This document shows, one piece after another, positions 1 to 10,533 of a stretch of 37,959 nt of DNA. The DNA is from Chloroflexota bacterium (GTDB lineage: Bacteria > Chloroflexota > Anaerolineae > 4572-78 > NAK82). The stretch lies in assembly GCA_024276515.1 (NCBI GenBank), contig JAJRXB010000274.1, positions 1 to 37,959 on the forward strand, given 5' to 3'. The notes beneath the pieces were generated by a model. That model saw only the letters and a list, made by a program, of their open reading frames with translations, was not told where the DNA came from and ran no database searches. The position numbers were made by a program, and so were the translations under genes. The first letter of the stretch is position 1. Each line of letters starts with the position of its first letter.

Positions 1-2188
1 CCACGGCGTCGGCGTCGGCCCTTGTCCTCACCGAGATCCGCCCCAGGAACATATCCGGCAGGATGTCGTCGCCACTCACGCACACGAACCAATTGTCAGA
101 AGGGGTCTCCCCCAGTTCCAGCGTATCAATGAGATGGGTGGGCACGTAGTTGACGTTGCCTGTCCCCAGGTTGTCCTTGTAGTCCATGTTCGCATCACCC
201 ATCAAGAGAACGTACTGGGGGGCTGGCGCAGTCCAATTCTCGTAGGCATACGCCAAAAAGTCCCGGATCGCCTGGGGGTTAAAGATGCCATAGTTGAACT
301 CGTCGTAAACGTCGGTGATCTCGACCGTTGCCGTCCGCAACCCCTGGTTCTCCCGATGAGTGGCCAACGTCAGGGCACTGGTGTAGAAATCCTGGTGGGT
401 GATGATGACGTAGTCAGCGCCGTTGTCGGTAGACCTCAGGTCAGATGGCTCGTCGAGGACGATGCTGACCGGGCTCTTGCGCTGCGGCGGCGTCAGGGCC
501 AGATAGCGCGTGTCCGTCCCGCAGGTGTCTTCGAACCGGGCCAGGTAGGTGCTGCCTGCTGTCTCTACCTCGCCGTTGACGATACGGGTGACGCTGAGCG
601 GATGGGTAACGTCGAATATGTCAACGGTATCGGTGGTGAAATTGCTCACCTCGAACTTGTACGTGCCGGCTCCCGGACCACGGAACCCCAGCACGTCGCC
701 CTCCGCCACGTAGGTGTCCCAGTAGCCGATCTCAAACCAGTTATGGTAGACGATGTCCACCGACGCACCGGTATCGCCTGCCGACTCGACCCTGATCGTA
801 TTGACGCCTTCCAGCAATTGGGTCTGGGATATCGTCGCCTGGTGCTGATACTCGATCTGCCCATCCCACCAGGCGTCGGAGACCAGCGTTCCGTTCAGGT
901 AGATCCGGGTATGGTGATTCGGGTAGGTGGGCGGGTTCGTTTTCCCCCGCAGGGTCACTGTCACCTGGCCCGTATCGCTGATGCCGGCGATGTTGTTCAG
1001 GCCGACAGAGTAGTTTCCCGAGGTTGGGGCGCTGAGTTGTTCCCAAAAATAGTGGTCCTGCCCTTCCCCATTGGGCAGGCCTTGCCAGTATGTGTTGTCC
1101 TCCTCTGCGCGCACGACGTTGTAGAATTCGGTCGGCACCGCTGCTGACCCCGGGGTCCCGTCTCGCTCCGCCATACGCAGCCCGTTTTCTCCCCCATAGG
1201 TTAACCAATACACATTCTCAACGGTAAAGACGTCGGTGATGGCTGTGCCGTAGAACACCAGGTAGTCCCCCGGGTCGAAACTGCCGTCGTTCTCGCCCTG
1301 GAGGTAGATAGGAATTTCGATCCCGCGATTGGTCATCTTGATCGTGCGCGGGTCCAGTTCGGCCAGATCCAGACCTGCGCTTTGCAGGTCGGAGGGGGTG
1401 ACTTCGTAGATTCCATCTTCTGCCACGGATATTTTGAGCGCGGGAGACTGGTTGGCCGTGGCGGACACCTTTCGACCGGGCAGGTTACTGTCTGATTGGT
1501 CGCCGTCGTCTACCTGCCTGCCCAGGCTTGCGTAATTGAGAAGTACGTTTTGCAGGAGCCCTTCGTAGGCCCTGCCACCCGGCCGGCGTGTAGCGTCCGC
1601 TTGCGCCACCGTGCCAAAAGTCACCCTGAGCCGAATGCGGCGATAGAACCTCGCTTCCCCGGTGACCGGGTTGTACTGGAGAGGGTAGATGCGCAGTTGC
1701 ACCACCGCCTGATCGCGCACGTAGCCCGAGAAGCCGATCTCCGCCAGCCGGCCTGGATAGAAGGAGTTGGTGGCGTACACGGCCGCATCGAGGGCGAATT
1801 CAGGCTCAGCGTGCCGAACGCCACCGTTCTCTCTGATGACCAGGGCCGGGCTCGGATACAGGTTGTAGCCGGACAACGTCCGGTAGTCCGACTCCAGAAC
1901 CTCGACGCGGGCACTGCCGCCTGGCGCGCCCAACAGCACTCCCTGCACCGGCACCTGAGGGCTGCCCACCTCCGTCGTCCAGGCCAGACCGGGGAGGGTC
2001 ACCCTGTGATAGGTCACCCCTTCGTGCTCCACGGTTTCCGCGTGGAGGTCTGCCGCGGCGAACTCGAGGACGACGCTCTGGTCATCGGAGTGTAGGAGCC
2101 TGAGGCTCTGAGGCTCAGGGGGGGTGGCACCGAAATTGGTCACTCCACAGATGGCACACAGCGCTACCAGCAGCCCTTTTTTTCTCAT
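1..2188 (-). CDS. Secreted C25-family (gingipain-like) cysteine peptidase, 3' end truncated by window edge
   Basis: Minus-strand frame reads openly from ATG at 2188 (MRKKGLLVALCAICGVTNFGATPPEPQSLRLL...) in the stretches I translated, through ...YVLLMGDANMDYKDNLGTGNVNYVPTHLIDTLELGETPSDNWFVCVSGDDILPDMFLGRISVRTRADADAV at the edge. Signal peptide, C25 N-terminal prodomain style and the YVPT/SDNWFVCVSGDD/PDMFLGRISVRT block of Peptidase_C25. Absent from the ORF track because it has no stop inside the window. Confidence 0.86.
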   Translation of the reverse strand, partial: MRKKGLLVALCAICGVTNFGATPPEPQSLRLLHSDDQSVVLEFAAADLHAETVEHEGVTYHRVTLPGLAWTTEVGSPQVPVQGVLLGAPGGSARVEVLESDYRTLSGYNLYPSPALVIRENGGVRHAEPEFALDAAVYATNSFYPGRLAEIGFSGYVRDQAVVQLRIYPLQYNPVTGEARFYRRIRLRVTFGTVAQADATRRPGGRAYEGLLQNVLLNYASLGRQVDDGDQSDSNLPGRKVSATANQSPALKISVAEDGIYEVTPSDLQSAGLDLAELDPRTIKMTNRGIEIPIYLQGENDGSFDPGDYLVFYGTAITDVFTVENVYWLTYGGENGLRMAERDGTPGSAAVPTEFYNVVRAEEDNTYWQGLPNGEGQDHYFWEQLSAPTSGNYSVGLNNIAGISDTGQVTVTLRGKTNPPTYPNHHTRIYLNGTLVSDAWWDGQIEYQHQATISQTQLLEGVNTIRVESAGDTGASVDIVYHNWFEIGYWDTYVAEGDVLGFRGPGAGTYKFEVSNFTTDTVDIFDVTHPLSVTRIVNGEVETAGSTYLARFEDTCGTDTRYLALTPPQRKSPVSIVLDEPSDLRSTDNGADYVIITHQDFYTSALTLATHRENQGLRTATVEITDVYDEFNYGIFNPQAIRDFLAYAYENWTAPAPQYVLLMGDANMDYKDNLGTGNVNYVPTHLIDTLELGETPSDNWFVCVSGDDILPDMFLGRISVRTRADADAV

Positions 2189-2238
2189 CAAAGACTCCGC
2201 TGAAAAAAACCGGGTTTATCGAATGCCCTCCATTGTGT

Positions 2239-3414
2239 TCATCCGCCGCTCACCAAATCGCAGATCAGTTCTGCCATCTCGTCCAGCCTGCCCACGGAGA
2301 GGCGATAACACCGCATCTGGCTCACCATATCTGCCAGTTCCAGGAACAAGCGTGCGGCGCTACCCTGGTACTCTTGCTGTATGAGAACCGAGTTGCGCCC
2401 GGCCCGAAATCTTCTGACCAGTTCCATCGTCGCTTCTGCGCTGGAGATCGGCTCCAGCCTGGGTGATGCTTCGAAATCGGGCCGGCGCTCGCCACCTTTG
2501 ACCACGTCGAGGATGCGCACTCCCTGCCCCCGGCATATTTCCTCGATCCGAGAAGTGACGGACGTGCCTCTTTCAACGCGCAATCGAAGCGCCGGCAGCG
2601 TGCCCTCCGGCACGCGCTCTACGTCCTTCACCCCCCTGATGCCCCGCATCTCCTCCAACAGGGCGGCGGTGATCCGCTCCGGGAGGAGGTATAGCGTTCG
2701 ATCAGGCTCATCCAGCCCCCTCCCCTCGCTTGAGGGATTCGACAGGACGACGACGTACCCTCCCGGGCACGGCTCACCGAGGCTATCAGGCCGGATGCGT
2801 TCGATGTCGAGGATCAGTTTGTCCCGCCAACTTGTGGCCGGGGCAGAGTGGTGCGCTGTGCCCCTCGGCTCTATTCGGGACGTCGCTGTCGAAGGAGGGG
2901 GTGTGAATCCCCACAGAGCCAGGGTGCCGGGGCGCAGCCGCAGACTGCGGGGAAACGGAGTCAGCCGACGGTGCTGGCGGTCGAAGGCCGCGATCTCGTC
3001 GGAGAGGAACTTGAAGCCCCGTCTCACCAGTTCCAGGATCAGGGTGGTCTTGCCGTGGCCGGAGTAGGCGGGGAAAACGACGCCGTGACCGTTCCAGGAT
3101 ACCACCCCAGCGTGAATCAGAATGTGGCTTCTGACCCGGGCGACGATGGAGTCGAGGATGCGTTCATAAGCCAGATCGACCAGAGAGTCGGAGTCGTCGA
3201 GGGTCAGGACTTGATCGTCAACGACCAGCATCCTCTCTTGGGTCATCACGTAGCAGGTCGTCTGAGTCTCGTCGCAGCCGTCTGCACGGAAGCGCCGATA
3301 CATATCGGCAAACAGGTCCAGGAACTCCCGCGAGTCGGATTGAGCGGCGATCACTACGTCAAAGAAACGGTAGCTGTCGCGGTGGGGAGCGCGGCCCCCA
3401 AACGTCGGCCACAT
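2239..3414 (-). CDS. HPr kinase/phosphorylase-like (HprK-related) kinase of a PqqD/radical SAM module
   Basis: 391 aa ORF; Walker A-like AYSGHGKTTLILELVRRGFKFLSDEIAAFD followed by HprK-style DE(I/V)AA; N-terminal YRFFDV...SREFLDLFADMYRRF; located 15 nt after the radical SAM gene. Confidence 0.75.
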   Translation of the reverse strand: MWPTFGGRAPHRDSYRFFDVVIAAQSDSREFLDLFADMYRRFRADGCDETQTTCYVMTQERMLVVDDQVLTLDDSDSLVDLAYERILDSIVARVRSHILIHAGVVSWNGHGVVFPAYSGHGKTTLILELVRRGFKFLSDEIAAFDRQHRRLTPFPRSLRLRPGTLALWGFTPPPSTATSRIEPRGTAHHSAPATSWRDKLILDIERIRPDSLGEPCPGGYVVVLSNPSSEGRGLDEPDRTLYLLPERITAALLEEMRGIRGVKDVERVPEGTLPALRLRVERGTSVTSRIEEICRGQGVRILDVVKGGERRPDFEASPRLEPISSAEATMELVRRFRAGRNSVLIQQEYQGSAARLFLELADMVSQMRCYRLSVGRLDEMAELICDLVSGG

Positions 3415-3429
3415 CTTGCAGTCTGCAAT

Positions 3430-4809
3430 CTACTGACAGGCTGGCTCCATCGCCAGGTTCTCCCGGCTCAGTTTACGCCCTGCCAGGTTGAAAAAAGTTT
3501 CCCGGTAGAGGTGCTGGCGGAACTCGCAGAGGTCGTCGGTTGCCAGCATTGTACCCTTCTCCCAGAGAATGCTGGCCGGGCAACACGCCTGGCAAAAGTT
3601 TCTCCAATGGCAATGGCGACACTTTTCGATGAGTGTCTTTCTGGCTGCGCAGAAACTCTCCAGCTCCCCCAGATTGGGGGATGCCACAATCTGTCGCAGG
3701 GGCATGCGCTTGACGTTGCCCAGGCGAAAGTCGGGCGTCATCAACATGGAGCAGGGATACACGTCTCCCTGGGCGTCCACAGCGGCGTAGCGGCCAATGC
3801 CACACCACATTCCCTGCTCCGGGACATCGAGAACAAAGCCCTGGAACCCGCCATCAACGGCGATTTTACGAGGGTGGGCAAGGCGTTTATAGACGCAGGC
3901 GTACAGTTGTGCATAGCCCCCGGGCACGGGGCTTATCTCCGTCCAGACAGTCTTCGCTCGCCCCAGCCTTTGGAGAGGCATAAGGCGGAGCCTCACCCCC
4001 ATCCGTTCTGCCAGGTCAATCATATTGGGCACGTCAGCGACGTTGTGCCTCATCACGGTCATACAGAACGCCAGTTCACCGGCGAAGCCACGCCTGCGCA
4101 ACAATTCTACGGCGTGTATGGTCCTGTCGAAGGTTCCCGGGCCTCTGACTCGGTCGTGGACGGCCGGGCTGGCTCCGTCGAGGCTGATCTGGATGACGAG
4201 GTCCAGTTGGCTCAGGGCAGCAGCGGCCTCCTCGTCAATCAGGGTGGCGTTGGTGGTCAGAGAGGTTCGCACCCGCCGGGAGGCGTACCGCAGGACGTCC
4301 AAAACGTCCCCGCGCAACAGGGGCTCTCCGCCGCTCAGGGCCAGCGAGTCGTCGTTGGCCGGGGAGAGTTCGTCTACGAGGCGATATACCTCCACCGTGG
4401 TGAGGGCATCTGATGGCGCTGGCCTGCCCGTCACTGCGCAATGGATGCAACGCAGGTTGCACCTCTCGGTGACGCTGAGATGCAGGTGAAGCGGGCGAGG
4501 AGAAGAGGAGCCCGTTCCACTGGAAGGGGCGTGATCGAGCAAGAAGCCGGCCCGCTCAAGTTGCCGAAGGCAGGCGATGACATCGGCCTGCACCTGATTG
4601 GGTTCCTGGGCATAACGGGTGGCGATGATAGCGGCAATATTTTGTACTGTGTGCTCGCCATCGCACAGCCTTGCGATCTGGAGCCCCACGAGGTTGACCA
4701 CTATCCAAAGGGGCTTTTCGGGATGCAAGAGGAGATGAAGGCCCTCTTTCTCCTCGTGCATCAGTGGGGTCGGAACGTGAGGGGTGTATGAGGGCGTGAA
4801 TTCAGCCAC
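3430..4809 (-). CDS. Radical SAM/SPASM peptide maturase with N-terminal PqqD-like (RRE) domain
   Basis: 459 aa; PqqD-like N-terminus (LWIVVNLVGLQIARLCDGEHTVQNIAAIIATRY...), radical SAM CNLRCIHC (CX3CX2C), SGGEPLLR, C-terminal SPASM cysteines (WCGIGRY...YPCSM...KCRHCHWRNFCQACC...DDLCEF). GTG start with upstream AGAGGAG. Confidence 0.93.
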   Translation of the reverse strand: MAEFTPSYTPHVPTPLMHEEKEGLHLLLHPEKPLWIVVNLVGLQIARLCDGEHTVQNIAAIIATRYAQEPNQVQADVIACLRQLERAGFLLDHAPSSGTGSSSPRPLHLHLSVTERCNLRCIHCAVTGRPAPSDALTTVEVYRLVDELSPANDDSLALSGGEPLLRGDVLDVLRYASRRVRTSLTTNATLIDEEAAAALSQLDLVIQISLDGASPAVHDRVRGPGTFDRTIHAVELLRRRGFAGELAFCMTVMRHNVADVPNMIDLAERMGVRLRLMPLQRLGRAKTVWTEISPVPGGYAQLYACVYKRLAHPRKIAVDGGFQGFVLDVPEQGMWCGIGRYAAVDAQGDVYPCSMLMTPDFRLGNVKRMPLRQIVASPNLGELESFCAARKTLIEKCRHCHWRNFCQACCPASILWEKGTMLATDDLCEFRQHLYRETFFNLAGRKLSRENLAMEPACQ

Positions 4810-4835
4810 AGGCTCCTCTGGAGAATATTCAAAAG

Positions 4836-4997
4836 CTAGCAGCCCACGACTGACCCACTATGGTTGTAGCAGGCTCGGGCTGGTCCCAGTTCCTCCAGAA
4901 TCTCGTCCTTGTCGAGGGTGATGACCTTCGGCGGCTCGTATTTTGGAAGTTCCTCTTCCTTTTCTTTCAAGATTCGCTTTGGCTTCACGTTTTCCAC
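4836..4997 (-). CDS. Putative RiPP precursor peptide (53 aa) for the adjacent radical SAM enzyme
   Basis: GTG start at 4997 preceded by AAGGGAGCAAGCT (GGGAG ribosome-binding-like), TAG at 4836-4838. Translation: VENVKPKRILKEKEEELPKYEPPKVITLDKDEILEELGPARACYNHSGSVVGC*. Charged leader, EILEELGPA motif, short C-terminal core with two Cys; 23 nt after the preceding stop and 26 nt before the radical SAM start. Confidence 0.76.
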   Translation of the reverse strand: MENVKPKRILKEKEEELPKYEPPKVITLDKDEILEELGPARACYNHSGSVVGC

Positions 4998-5020
4998 AGC
5001 TTGCTCCCTTGTTCTCAGAT

Positions 5021-5980
5021 CTAATGCGGCGCAAAGGGCCTGTGTGGCGGGCGGCGAAATGGGCGTGTCACTGTGACTGCCACCGGGCCGTGGGGAGTGC
5101 TCACGCCGTAATAGTCCACGTCTTCCAACCGGTAGTAGAAGGTGCCGTAGCCCGGCGTGTCCAGGAAGCTGTAGCGGGCGCCGGACACCGGGTCGCCCTC
5201 GGCGGCGATGAGCGCGTCGTTGATCCGGGTGTAGGGTCCGTCTTCGGCCGTGGCGCGGTACAGGTTGAAGCCGGCGTTGTCGAGCTCTGTGCCCGTCTCC
5301 CAGGCCAGGGTGACACGGCCAGCACTTGCCTCGGCGGTGAAGGAGGTCAGCGTAATGGCAGTGGGTGGCCCGGTCACGGAGTTGGGGGCCTTGGGGGTGC
5401 CGTTGATAGGGTTGCCGTCGGCGTCCAGCCCGTTGCGCGTCACGCCATCGTTGGTGGCCCAGTTGCTATCGGCATCAGAGGCAGAGGGGGTAATGCGCTC
5501 CATGCTGCGGTAGTCTGGGCTGCCGGTACCGGCCGGCCAGCCGCCGCCGTCGCCGTTGGCGGTGTCAATCAGAGTCCCGGCGTCATCGCGCAGCTCCAAT
5601 TTCTCCCCGGAGTTGCCGAGGGCTCCGGTGTATATCTGGTCGGCGGCGACGTCGCTCACTGCGTTGTCGTCAGTGCGCTCCAACAGGAAATAGCCGTGGG
5701 CGGGAATCGTTTTGCCATTTTTAAGGGTGATGCCTGGTGTCCCATCGGCTGCGGTCAGCGTCCAGCCGCTCAAGTCAATAGCATTGCCGGTGTTGTTGTA
5801 CAGCTCGATCCATTCGTCGGCGGGGCTGGCCGCCGTACCGCCCCAGGCCACCTCGTTGATGACCACGTCCAGGGGTCCAGATCCGGCCTGCTGTGACGGC
5901 GCTGCGTTCACCCATCCCCTGGCGGAGACCAACCCTGCCACGATAACCAACCCCACAAGAACGGGTATGCCTTTTTTCAT
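5021..5980 (-). CDS. Secreted lamin-tail-domain (LTD) protein with C-terminal FN3-like domain
   Basis: Signal peptide MKKGIPVLVGLVIVAGLVSARGWVNA; LTD motifs VVINEVAWGGTAASPADEWIELYNNTGNAIDLSGWTLTAADG; C-terminal ITLTSFTAEASAGRVTLAWETGTELDNAGFNLYRA...YRLEDVDYYGVSTPHGPVAVTV. Confidence 0.85.
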   Translation of the reverse strand: MKKGIPVLVGLVIVAGLVSARGWVNAAPSQQAGSGPLDVVINEVAWGGTAASPADEWIELYNNTGNAIDLSGWTLTAADGTPGITLKNGKTIPAHGYFLLERTDDNAVSDVAADQIYTGALGNSGEKLELRDDAGTLIDTANGDGGGWPAGTGSPDYRSMERITPSASDADSNWATNDGVTRNGLDADGNPINGTPKAPNSVTGPPTAITLTSFTAEASAGRVTLAWETGTELDNAGFNLYRATAEDGPYTRINDALIAAEGDPVSGARYSFLDTPGYGTFYYRLEDVDYYGVSTPHGPVAVTVTRPFRRPPHRPFAPH

Positions 5981-7200: not shown

Positions 7201-7482
7201 TCAGGCCATCTTCTTCAACAGCCCTTTGCCGGCAAAGACCGCCAGCGCCCGCCGGACATCTCCGGCCACGTCGTGTTCATCGGCCCCGGAGAAGCTGGCC
7301 CTGACCGCTCGCTCTATGTCTTCTGCGGTGTGCTCCCCATTGCAAAGTTCCCAGATGAGCTGTGCGGTGGGGTTGAGAATATGAATTGCCTCGTCGTCGG
7401 CGCTATAGAGCAGTGTTTCACCTCCAATATCCTTGACAGTGATGTCCGGCTTGCAGACGGGTTTCGTTATGTTCATTATCAC
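7201..7482 (-). CDS. Stand-alone PqqD-family (RRE) protein
   Basis: 93 aa; KDIGGETLLYSADDEAIHILNPTAQLIWELCNGEHTAEDIERAVRASF, typical PqqD fold sequence; shares the LC(N/D)GEHT block with the N-terminus of the radical SAM protein. Confidence 0.87.
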   Translation of the reverse strand: MIMNITKPVCKPDITVKDIGGETLLYSADDEAIHILNPTAQLIWELCNGEHTAEDIERAVRASFSGADEHDVAGDVRRALAVFAGKGLLKKMA

Positions 7483-7489
7483 TCCTTTT

Positions 7490-7790
7490 ATGCTCCTTGA
7501 GCCACCCCTTCAGGATGGCCGCCGGGTAGGCGAAGGACCGCTCCAACACCGGCCGGCCGCCGACCTTGAAGACCATCAGCAGTTGGCACAGGCCGTAGTC
7601 GAAGGAGAAGGGGAGCACGTTGATGACGGCGAACACACCGCCCGCTTTGAGGGTGGCGAAGATGCCCACCACCGCTTCGACGGAGTTGTTGAGGTAAACC
7701 GCCACCCGGTCGCCGCGCCGAACGCCACCCTCGATCAGGGCGGTTGGCCAGGCGGTCGGCGCTGTGGTGTAGAATGTCCTGGACGAGCAT
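7490..7790 (-). pseudogene. Relic of an AMP-forming acyl-CoA ligase/synthetase
   Basis: MLVQDILHHSADRLANR is followed in another frame by ALIEGGVRRGDRVAVYLNNSVEAVVGIFATLKAGGVFAVIN, joined directly to VLPFSFDYGLCQLLMVFKVGGRPVLERSFAYPAAIL. These are parts of one ligase family with the intervening residues missing, a frame break, and no C-terminal half. Confidence 0.72.
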
Positions 7791-7837: not shown

Positions 7838-8095
7838 CTAGCCCCCGGCCCCCAGTGTCTTGCTGCGGACGTAGCGCGCCAGTTTGCTGACGGAGTCGAA
7901 GTTGTCGGGGGTGATCTCCTGGTCGTCCACCGTCACGCCAAAGGTCTCTTCGACGAAGAGCACCAGCTCCAGCACGCCGACGGAGTCGACGATGCCTTCT
8001 TGCAGAAAGGAGTCGTCGTCATCGTACTCAAAGCCATCGTCGCTGAAGAGCAGGTTCTGGGCCACGTATTTTCGAATTTGGGCTTCGATTTCCAT
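7838..8095 (-). CDS. Acyl carrier protein
   Basis: MEIEAQIRKYVAQNLLFSDDGFEYDDDDSFLQEGIVDSVGVLELVLFVEETFGVTVDDQEITPDNFDSVSKLARYVRSK; phosphopantetheine site DSV. Start chosen at the Met 19 codons inside the listed ORF. Confidence 0.88.
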   Translation of the reverse strand: MEIEAQIRKYVAQNLLFSDDGFEYDDDDSFLQEGIVDSVGVLELVLFVEETFGVTVDDQEITPDNFDSVSKLARYVRSKTLGAGG

Positions 8096-8103
8096 TTGAA
8101 CCT

Positions 8104-10533
8104 TCACTCGAGCTGGGTCGGATCGCGGGGCGGGTCGGTGTATTTGATCCACACCGGGTTCCAGTCGTTGAACCCGGCACGACTGAGGCTGTACAAATTG
8201 CTCCCGTCGGCGTCCATCACCCAGATTTGCCGGTTCCCGGTGCGATTGGACCAGAAGACAATCTTCGATCCATCAGGTGACCAGGATGGATGTTTGTCCC
8301 ACCAGCTATATCTGTCTCTGGTCAGTTGACGGGCACCGCTGCCATCACGATTGATGACCCAAATCTCGTCATTGCCGCTGTCGTCCGAGACAAAGGCGAT
8401 CTGATCGGCGGTGGGAGACCAGGCCGGCTCATAAGCGATGCCGGCGCCAAAATGGGTGATTTGCCCCTCTACTTTGTAATAGGAATCGTAGAAGAAAAGA
8501 GCAGGAACTCTCAGTTGAACGGGAACGACGTTACCGAAGCTGTCCTCCACGCCCGTATCTATGATTGCATCCTTCACAAATACCCGGAGCCGTTGGTCCG
8601 GAGAATAAGCGTCGCGGGCCAGGGCCAGGTCGTAAGGCCAGCGATCGGTCAGCAGGGCCAGGTTACTCCCATCCGGATCCACCAGGAAGACCAATGGGTC
8701 TTCCCCGCCAGCTCGATCTGAGACAAAGGCGATCTTGCCCACCAGTTCCGACGGGATGGACCGGGGCGTGGCCGTGGGGGTGGGAGTGGGACTCGGGGTC
8801 AGAATCCCGCCCTCGAGCAGCACGAAAATCGGCGTCGGTGTGACCGTCCACACGTTCATCGGCGTGGGGGTGGGTGTGCCGTAGGCCATTGCTTCGGCGG
8901 TGGCGAGTGTGTTCTGGTACACAGCCGTGGCCGTGTTGGCCGGCGTCGGGCTGGGTGCGACGATGATGGGCGTCACCCAGTTCTCTGGGGCTGGCGTGTA
9001 GGTGCCTGTCGTGGCAGCCACGCGGGTGGCGGTAGCCGCCAATGCCACCACGGTGAAAACGTTCTCCGGCGTCGGTGTGCTGGTGACTATCACGTAGGTC
9101 GGGCTGGGTGTGGCCGTCCAGACATCGGTCGGCAGCGGCGTGGGAGTTCCATACAGGAAAGCTTCGGCCGTCGCCACAGCAGCCACCCACTCCGCCGTGG
9201 CAGTGTTGCCGGGGACGGGGGTATTGGTGACGATAACGGGCGGTGTGGCCGTGACCATGTTTGCAGGCCATGGGGTGGGCGTGCCGATGGCGGTGGCCTG
9301 GTAAGTGGCGGTGGCGGCCAGGGCGACCGCAGTCACCACGTTGGCGGGCGTGGGTGTGGCCGGGATGGCCGGGACCACGACGGGCGTGGGTGTGGGCGGA
9401 GGCTGGTAAACGAGGCGCAGGGCCGGGCGGTTGCCGAACCCGCCACCGTAACCCGTATCCCAGGTGAAGAGATTATCCGCTCCCTGGGTAGGGCCGTCGA
9501 GGCGAAAAGATACCAGCCCGGTCTCCAGCCGTCGTTCCAGTTCTTCGAGGTGGACCGCTGTGAAGGTGAAAACGTTTACCTGGCGCACTGCCAGGTCCTC
9601 GGGCTTCAATTCGGGGGGGATGGTGTCGAGTACCGGTGCGTCGCGTATCTGATCGTAGGTGGCAGCCACCCAATTCCCATCCACTTCTGGGCCCAGGAGA
9701 CGGAGGGTCCAGGTTCCTCCAGTTCCCAGGTGCTCCCCGCTCAACCCTGCCAACTCCAGGGTCGCCGCCTCGATCCTGGACCCCAACGGGACGGACGCCA
9801 GGTTGAACTGCATCGCGCCGTAGTAGGTGTGGCCCTCGAAGGCACCCACGTGCAGATTGCGGTCGCCGAAGTGGTTGAGCGGATCGCTGCTCGACACCCA
9901 GCCCACGGCATTCCCAACCGGATAGAGAACGACTTGCAACCTGCCGGGAGGCAGGGTAGGATTTGGCAGGCGTGGCACAGGCGTCGACGCCACCACCGGG
10001 ACGGCCCCTGCTGGCGTCGGCGTCTCCGCCGGAGGCATCGTCGGTGGCGGCGTGGGTGCGACGAGGGGGGCTGAGGGGGGGGCGACAAGGGGATCAGCTC
10101 CGGCCAGCGACCGCCTCATATTCAGGTAACTGTAGACGGCCGCCAGGACGAGAAACGCTATGGCGATCCACGCCACCCACTGTAGCAGGGAAATCTCTTC
10201 CAGGAACGCCACAAGCCAGAACGGGGGTCGCGACGGTGGGGCAGGTGCTGCATCCTCCGGCAGGGAGGAGACATCGCCACCGGCCAGAGGGACGGAGGGC
10301 GGACGCTCGACAGCCGGGGAAGGCATCGGCTCTGGCGGTGCCACGAATCGGGGACAGGCGTCAAAAGTGGAGGTCAGACAGAAAGCTGCCTGGTGATCCA
10401 GATCAATCCGCTGGCACCTGGTCGCCACGTAGCAGCGGTGCTCCTCCGCCGGTTCGGTGAAGATGGAAGCCCGGTCGGCCTGCAATCCAAAATGGGGACA
10501 ATAGCGTTGGTGGTTGGGCGATATGGGGGGCAT
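8104..10533 (-). CDS. Membrane protein with Cys-rich N-terminus, DNRLRE-like domain, Thr/Pro/Ala repeat region and C-terminal TolB/PD40 beta-propeller repeats
   Basis: N-terminal CPHFGL...HRCY...HQAAFCL...CPRF; TM LLQWVAWIAIAFLVLAAVY; SSSDPLNHFGDRNLHVGAFEGHTYYGAMQFNLASVPLGSRIEAATLEL; repeated NxxTxxxxxAATAT...GTPTP; KIAFVSDRAGGEDPLVFLVDPDGSNL, QIAFVSDDSGNDEIWVINRDGSGARQLT, KIVFWSNRTGNRQIWVMDADGSNL. Confidence 0.88.
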   Translation of the reverse strand: MPPISPNHQRYCPHFGLQADRASIFTEPAEEHRCYVATRCQRIDLDHQAAFCLTSTFDACPRFVAPPEPMPSPAVERPPSVPLAGGDVSSLPEDAAPAPPSRPPFWLVAFLEEISLLQWVAWIAIAFLVLAAVYSYLNMRRSLAGADPLVAPPSAPLVAPTPPPTMPPAETPTPAGAVPVVASTPVPRLPNPTLPPGRLQVVLYPVGNAVGWVSSSDPLNHFGDRNLHVGAFEGHTYYGAMQFNLASVPLGSRIEAATLELAGLSGEHLGTGGTWTLRLLGPEVDGNWVAATYDQIRDAPVLDTIPPELKPEDLAVRQVNVFTFTAVHLEELERRLETGLVSFRLDGPTQGADNLFTWDTGYGGGFGNRPALRLVYQPPPTPTPVVVPAIPATPTPANVVTAVALAATATYQATAIGTPTPWPANMVTATPPVIVTNTPVPGNTATAEWVAAVATAEAFLYGTPTPLPTDVWTATPSPTYVIVTSTPTPENVFTVVALAATATRVAATTGTYTPAPENWVTPIIVAPSPTPANTATAVYQNTLATAEAMAYGTPTPTPMNVWTVTPTPIFVLLEGGILTPSPTPTPTATPRSIPSELVGKIAFVSDRAGGEDPLVFLVDPDGSNLALLTDRWPYDLALARDAYSPDQRLRVFVKDAIIDTGVEDSFGNVVPVQLRVPALFFYDSYYKVEGQITHFGAGIAYEPAWSPTADQIAFVSDDSGNDEIWVINRDGSGARQLTRDRYSWWDKHPSWSPDGSKIVFWSNRTGNRQIWVMDADGSNLYSLSRAGFNDWNPVWIKYTDPPRDPTQLE

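Follow-up and report, generated by a model that had tools for sequence, protein, structure and literature searches.

A putative leader-guided peptide operon of a Chloroflexota bacterium resembles linear polyphosphorylated peptide systems and carries a radical SAM maturase and a C25 peptidase

A small peptide gene followed by genes for a radical S-adenosylmethionine (SAM) maturase, an HprK-like kinase, and a secreted, gingipain-like peptidase of family C25 raises the question of what such an operon makes and what each enzyme contributes. This combination lies at one end of a 37,959-nucleotide stretch of DNA (hereafter, the window) that represents the entire contig C195 of G000, a fragmented genome of a Chloroflexota bacterium. 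On the basis of gene content, conserved gene order, specific co-occurrence, and intact catalytic motifs, we regard the locus as probably a leader-guided operon for a ribosomally synthesized and post-translationally modified peptide (RiPP), which would work like the linear polyphosphorylated peptide (LPP) systems first described in 2026 by Popov et al. (PMC13381572) and carry a radical SAM extension. As such, it looks like an unreported relative of these systems outside Bacillota, with extra components.

As stated in the original prediction, the four genes are consecutive, co-directional, and 15–50 nt apart. They are transcribed from the minus strand in the order precursor, PqqD-radical SAM-SPASM maturase, HprK-like kinase, and C25 peptidase, with intergenic gaps of 26, 15, and 47–50 nt (Table 1). 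The co-directional run extends upstream, where the gene for a secreted protein with a fibronectin type III (fn3)-like domain stops 23 nt before the precursor and the gene for a free PqqD protein sits further upstream still. A promoter scan found nothing. Domain assignments are firm for all four proteins except the kinase.

The precursor, which has no NCBIfam or Pfam match, comprises a leader with YEPP, a motif of the YxxP type bound by RiPP recognition elements (RREs), and EILEELG, followed by PARA and the predicted core CYNHSGSVVGC. Four further loci have homologues adjoining the radical SAM gene, and across these five precursors, the leader is conserved and the core variable. An A or T was found at position -1 in 21 of 23 leaders, and position -3 is mostly A, V, or I. 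Signal peptidases prefer such residues at these two positions.

The maturase carries an N-terminal PqqD domain of the RRE type (Pfam E-value 4.9e-12), a Radical_SAM domain (1.7e-26), and a SPASM domain (5.7e-11), and both its CNLRCIHC motif (CxxxCxxC) and its SPASM cysteines are invariant across six homologues. Five full-length relatives, 43–50% identical, were found. The predicted core starts with a cysteine in all five precursors associated with this enzyme vs only 1 of 18 others (p=1.8e-4), and a second cysteine follows 4–10 residues after the first, with the pattern C...SV..C in four. Because a cysteine at core position 1 correlates with the presence of the radical SAM enzyme, the enzyme can be tied to the cysteine core; it is an optional part of the system that occurs with precursors whose core starts with Cys. 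This correlation suggests that the enzyme would link or otherwise alter the core, with one cysteine or both as the likeliest site. A survey of 400 genomes of the phylum with the single radical SAM sequence returned only paralogues 30–38% identical, without the precursor. Nearly all of the 80 radical SAM loci retrieved represented such paralogues, and some 100 radical SAM loci that are more distantly related contained no such precursor.

The kinase matches HprK_rel_A (2.7e-19) and, below the Pfam cut-off, Hpr_kinase_C (1.3e-5). Its histidine, P-loop (GKTT), and SD(D/E) region are kept in 13 homologues, and its structure model (predicted local distance difference test, pLDDT, of 85) gave phosphoenolpyruvate carboxykinase and HprK/P as best Foldseek matches. 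Such an enzyme may phosphorylate a serine of the core, perhaps the one in the conserved Ser-Val pair.

Is the gene set conserved beyond this genome? G427 has the same order of precursor, radical SAM, HprK, and C25, and so does G508 except for one insertion. Individual loci read fn3-PqqD-precursor-radical SAM-HprK-C25-S26 (L120), PqqD-precursor-radical SAM-fn3-HprK-C25-NTP transferase (L121), fn3-PqqD-precursor-radical SAM up to the contig end (L122), PqqD-precursor-fn3-radical SAM-HprK, also up to the contig end (L040), and radical SAM-HprK-S26-NTP transferase, where no precursor was recognized (L045). The original prediction would have failed had the neighborhoods of close radical SAM homologues lacked both kinase and peptidase, but the kinase follows the enzyme in all four relatives that extend far enough, and the C25 gene is present in two of three. 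A discrete PqqD gene lies directly ahead of the precursor in L120, L121, L122, L040, and others, and an NTP transferase is encoded in L121, L045, L154, L158, L160, L163, L188, and L189.

We then searched 396 genomes of this class with a leader profile built from the five radical SAM-locus precursors. The search recovered 11 further genomes (E<=1e-3) whose precursors combine a leader of the same kind (Y.xPxV.TYt.EEIL.ELGPAQA) with variable ends. Within about 9 kb of the newly found precursors, the HprK-like kinase was present in 10 of 11 genomes and C25 in 8. Free PqqD, S26 signal peptidase, and NTP transferase were each seen in about half, and none of the 11 had a full-length relative of the window's radical SAM enzyme within that distance. 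Conversely, 16 of the 396 genomes were matched by a kinase profile, and 13 of these also have the precursor (Fisher p=7e-20). This value is partly circular, most seeds of the profile having been taken from loci of this kind, and the count free of circularity is the 10 of 11 above. The three other kinase genomes comprised G684, with a weaker precursor beside the kinase, G524, with fn3-HprK-C25-S26-NTP transferase, and G477, whose contig is too short. These counts bear on the view that unrelated genes were simply gathered by chance in an exopolysaccharide cluster, to which the fragmented assembly and a functional linkage established by position only lend some room. We find this view scarcely credible, because the order recurs in distant genomes of different families, and for precursor and kinase it is already refuted by their co-occurrence. 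The peptide-modification operon originally proposed is thus borne out across families.

The end of the operon was recovered from a second contig of the same genome. Contig C573 shares 330 bp (99% identical) with the window's C25 gene and supplies the remainder of the gene (L125:1-1052, with the tail IYLPVTLRNYHP). The window's part stops before the catalytic residues, and the C573 part carries the catalytic His and Cys (YAGHGNVDNWG...TTANCLNGFF). Just downstream lies an archaeal-type signal peptidase of family S26 (L125:1231-1839; TIGR02228, 53.2 bits, above cut-off), and the Ser-His-Asp triad of these S26 enzymes is invariant in 10 of 10. Given this intact triad, together with A or T at -1 and A, V, or I at -3, the S26 enzyme is the favored leader peptidase and would cut after PARA; in LPPs, the leader peptidase is LppS (PMC13381572). 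Beyond it, C573 encodes a secreted protein ending in IFLPIIFKNG and then lasso peptide genes, namely, B1 (NF033536), B2 (NF033537, PF13471), and a cyclase (NF033535). The rest is on contig C287, which is joined to C573 by a 141-bp overlap at 100% identity and carries the cyclase, a lasso precursor (WTTPKLIVYGDVEVITRGNSDGAYLDQGFPVG...), another kinase-like gene, a pair of ABC transporter genes, and an NTP transferase. A complete lasso cluster (B1-B2-C-A-kinase-ABC-ABC-NTP transferase; L125:3309-4437 on C573 and L212:2999-9300 on C287) is therefore found directly downstream of the operon. Its B2 and cyclase genes lie about 2.5 kb from the C25 gene, and its own precursor is of the WxxP type, whereas that of the operon is YxxP.

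This arrangement recalls LPP loci, which consist of a YxxP precursor, a discrete RRE, an HprK kinase, an archaeal-type signal peptidase, in many loci an NTP transferase, and an MsbA-like exporter, and which are located within capsule clusters, frequently next to lasso clusters of the paeninodin type, whose leaders have WxxP (PMC13381572). In LPPs, the RRE binds YxxP, the HprK kinase polyphosphorylates a core serine, as observed by mass spectrometry, and the archaeal-type signal peptidase cuts the leader (PMC13381572). The present system shares the small precursor with a YxxP leader and variable C-terminal part, the discrete PqqD-type RRE, the HprK-like kinase, the archaeal-type signal peptidase I, in many homologous loci an NTP transferase, the polysaccharide-locus setting, the patchy distribution, and even the adjacent lasso cluster, including the Y/W contrast between leaders. 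By analogy with LPP and lasso RREs, the PqqD domains would bind YEPP of the leader. The present system differs in its phylum, Chloroflexota, and in its extra radical SAM/SPASM enzyme with a PqqD domain of its own, C25 peptidase, and secreted fn3 protein. The cassette, originally described as non-standard, therefore proves to be so only in part: its PqqD, HprK, signal peptidase, and NTP transferase portion matches LPP, while the radical SAM, C25, and fn3 components are extra.

Several observations nevertheless weigh against an LPP-like operon. The LPP family was reported as restricted to Bacillota, with no mention of Chloroflexota, radical SAM, or gingipain (PMC13381572). The rest of the leader here is EEILEELGPAQA and not the VLxHQxIxFETxxS of the LPP motif YxxPxVLxHQxIxFETxxS, and no MsbA-like exporter was found among the neighborhood open reading frames read, by eye and with our own profiles only. 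Neither the window nor C573 encodes an NTP transferase, the nearest being that of the adjacent lasso cluster on C287. The leader/core boundary is itself a prediction, and two precursors of the wider family (L152b and L154) have no Ser or Thr in their predicted core. Finally, a terminator-like stem (4852-4840) lies between the precursor and radical SAM genes, with terminator-like sites occurring at chance level. Taken together, an LPP-like way of working remains likely, but we do not claim LPP membership, because neither the leader motif nor the exporter agrees.

Other known systems share fewer of these features. Lasso pathways are known to use kinases and NTP transferases that tailor a C-terminal serine by phosphorylation and phosphoglycosylation, and the resulting peptides, such as paeninodin and pseudomycoidin (PMC8498205), resemble the present system in their PqqD-type RRE, HprK-like kinase, and NTP transferase. 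However, the predicted core of the operon contains no Asp or Glu, including at positions 7–9, for closing a macrolactam ring, and no B2 or cyclase genes were seen in the homologous loci. A lasso precursor was thus rejected for want of an acidic ring residue, the neighboring lasso cluster having its own precursor. Sactipeptide, ranthipeptide, and mycofactocin systems likewise pair a PqqD-linked SPASM maturase with a small Cys-bearing precursor, but scores here fall far under the family cut-offs, and those systems have no kinase, signal peptidase, or C25. The best NCBIfam match of the maturase is the mycofactocin maturase (168 bits, under the cut-off of 265), with the StsB maturase also among the best, and some predicted cores (VS in G475) have two residues only, as might be expected if the product were a small cofactor-like molecule, as in pyrroloquinoline quinone (PQQ) or mycofactocin pathways, and not a phosphopeptide. 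This is very unlikely in our view, since kinase, signal peptidase, and NTP transferase are foreign to these pathways, the core sequence is highly variable, and the context is one of exopolysaccharide and secreted-protein genes. Assignment to the mycofactocin/PQQ type was itself rejected, the matches being far under cut-offs. The HPr-rel-A and SynChlorMet cassettes (TIGR04352, TIGR04353, TIGR04248-04251) also combine an HprK-related and a PqqD protein, SynChlorMet with a radical SAM protein in addition, but every match here is under the curated cut-offs. These cassettes are not known other than by bioinformatic definition and are not known to contain C25.

The most interesting point of the system is what the C25 peptidase does. 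The protein matches Peptidase_C25 (4.4e-43) and Propeptide_C25 (2.5e-28), and the domain with its catalytic His and Cys is present in L120, L121, and the C573 continuation. One reading is that it is the peptide's own maturation protease, the modified precursor being exported and the leader removed or the core trimmed by C25 outside the cell. A C25 gene does lie near the precursor in 8 of the 11 newly found genomes, and cassette C25s outscore other C25s of the same genome on a cassette profile (1398 vs 661 bits in G427), although that profile was seeded with cassette members. However, C25 was found in 222 of the 396 genomes of the class, most of them without the operon's precursor or kinase, and it is therefore not specific to the peptide system. 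Moreover, L157, L158, and L163 have the kinase and an S26 peptidase but no C25. We thus consider this reading unlikely. The view of C25 as simply the peptide's protease probably does not hold, given the better leader-peptidase candidate in S26 and a class-wide pairing of C25 with fn3-domain proteins.

In this pairing, an fn3-domain protein is encoded within 5 kb of 20 of 31 C25 genes vs 0.29 expected (genomes checked), including at precursor-free loci. The fn3-like C-terminal domain was modeled with an fn3 fold (pLDDT 90), and its profile matches exactly one G000 protein, the one beside the precursor. Because the pairing is class-wide and occurs even where there is no precursor, C25 and its fn3 partner are best seen as their own unit, joined here to a peptide module. 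Pairs of C25 and secreted fn3-domain proteins with no recognized precursor or kinase, forming a class-wide two-gene unit, were observed in L194, L206, L207, L208, and L209. We accordingly see C25 as a secreted enzyme of the PorU-like kind that probably acts mainly on the co-encoded fn3 protein and not on the peptide.

A further possibility is that C25 acts as a PorU-like sortase, cutting the fn3 protein's LP tail and joining the protein to the modified phosphopeptide or a peptide-exopolysaccharide conjugate for cell-surface anchoring. Among solved structures, the type IX sortase PorU (6za2) comes closest to the C25 profile, the best NCBIfam match is T9SS_sortase, and gingipains and PorU share with the present enzymes a C25 domain with propeptide and His-Cys pair, as well as pairing with secreted proteins that bear an fn3 domain and C-terminal tail. 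In 18 of 24 loci, an fn3-domain gene lies close to the precursor gene, and each of the four dispersed precursors of G475 sits next to one. LP-hydrophobic-basic tails are frequent at the ends of both fn3 proteins and C25s and are followed in G475 by a membrane span and RRxA, and the surroundings encode exopolysaccharide synthesis. On the other hand, PorU models are matched well under cut-offs (NF033707, 183–243 bits vs 420), several fn3/C25 pairs have no precursor, and the window's own fn3 protein ends in RPFAPH, without LP. The Chloroflexota partners also lack the Por secretion tail (Por_Secre_tail was found in L040 only), their tail being of the LP-hydrophobic-basic type. A sortase role is thus quite doubtful, and we would give equally little weight to the idea that the phosphopeptide is a protein-sorting partner rather than a free natural product, with secreted proteins tied to exopolysaccharide via a phospho- or phosphoglyco-peptide. 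A literature search found nothing on C25 with radical SAM precursor systems, Chloroflexi C25 sorting, exosortase with PqqD, or SynChlorMet.

Returning to the LPP-like operon that we favor, its extra components hint at a role in surface-protein processing, which offers a concrete, testable lead for the function of capsule-associated phosphopeptides. The system would place in another phylum a type of RiPP that was reported as restricted to Bacillota. It would also show that the kinase module can occur together with a radical SAM enzyme, and would link it with a secreted peptidase and the partner protein of that peptidase.

Table 1. Features of the operon and its upstream flank (window coordinates)
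Feature	Position	Strand	Basis or remark
Precursor peptide, 53 aa	4836-4997	minus	GTG start behind GGGAG
Predicted core CYNHSGSVVGC	4839-4871	minus	boundary predicted from A or T at -1
PqqD-radical SAM-SPASM maturase	3430-4809	minus	Pfam, NCBIfam, cysteine motifs
HprK-like kinase	2239-3414	minus	HprK_rel_A match, motifs, structure model
C25 peptidase, secreted, gingipain/PorU-like, incomplete at contig end	1..2191 (called open reading frame 2-2191)	minus	Pfam
Secreted protein, lamin-tail domain and C-terminal fn3-like domain	5021-5980	minus	domain search, model
Free PqqD-family protein, discrete RRE candidate	7201-7482	minus	domain search
AMP-forming acyl ligase remnant (deleted)	7418-7790	minus	intact homologue in L158
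Acyl carrier protein	7838-8152	minus	domain search

Upstream of the operon, positions 10550-37823 of the window hold a large exopolysaccharide cluster encoding a BY-kinase-like protein, Wzy, a sugar transferase, many glycosyltransferases, and Wzm/Wzt. The acyl carrier protein and deleted AMP-ligase remnant before the free PqqD gene suggest that an acylation branch was lost here; the intact ligase counterpart (L158:1655-3843) matches the exosortase A-associated acyl ligase family. Elsewhere in G000, contig C169 (L128) encodes a second, distant radical SAM protein, and a stretch near the contig end matches the kinase weakly. LP-hydrophobic-basic tails such as YLPVVIK and YLPLVGR are shared by C25s and many secreted proteins (L120:4510-7365, L121:11181-13838, L125, L152, L160, L166, and others), and the extended form seen in G475 resembles a sorting signal. 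The four G475 precursors (L159, L160, L161, and L162) each stand directly after a secreted fn3-domain protein in a genome with one kinase/C25 locus only, and three of them have the same two-residue predicted core, VS.

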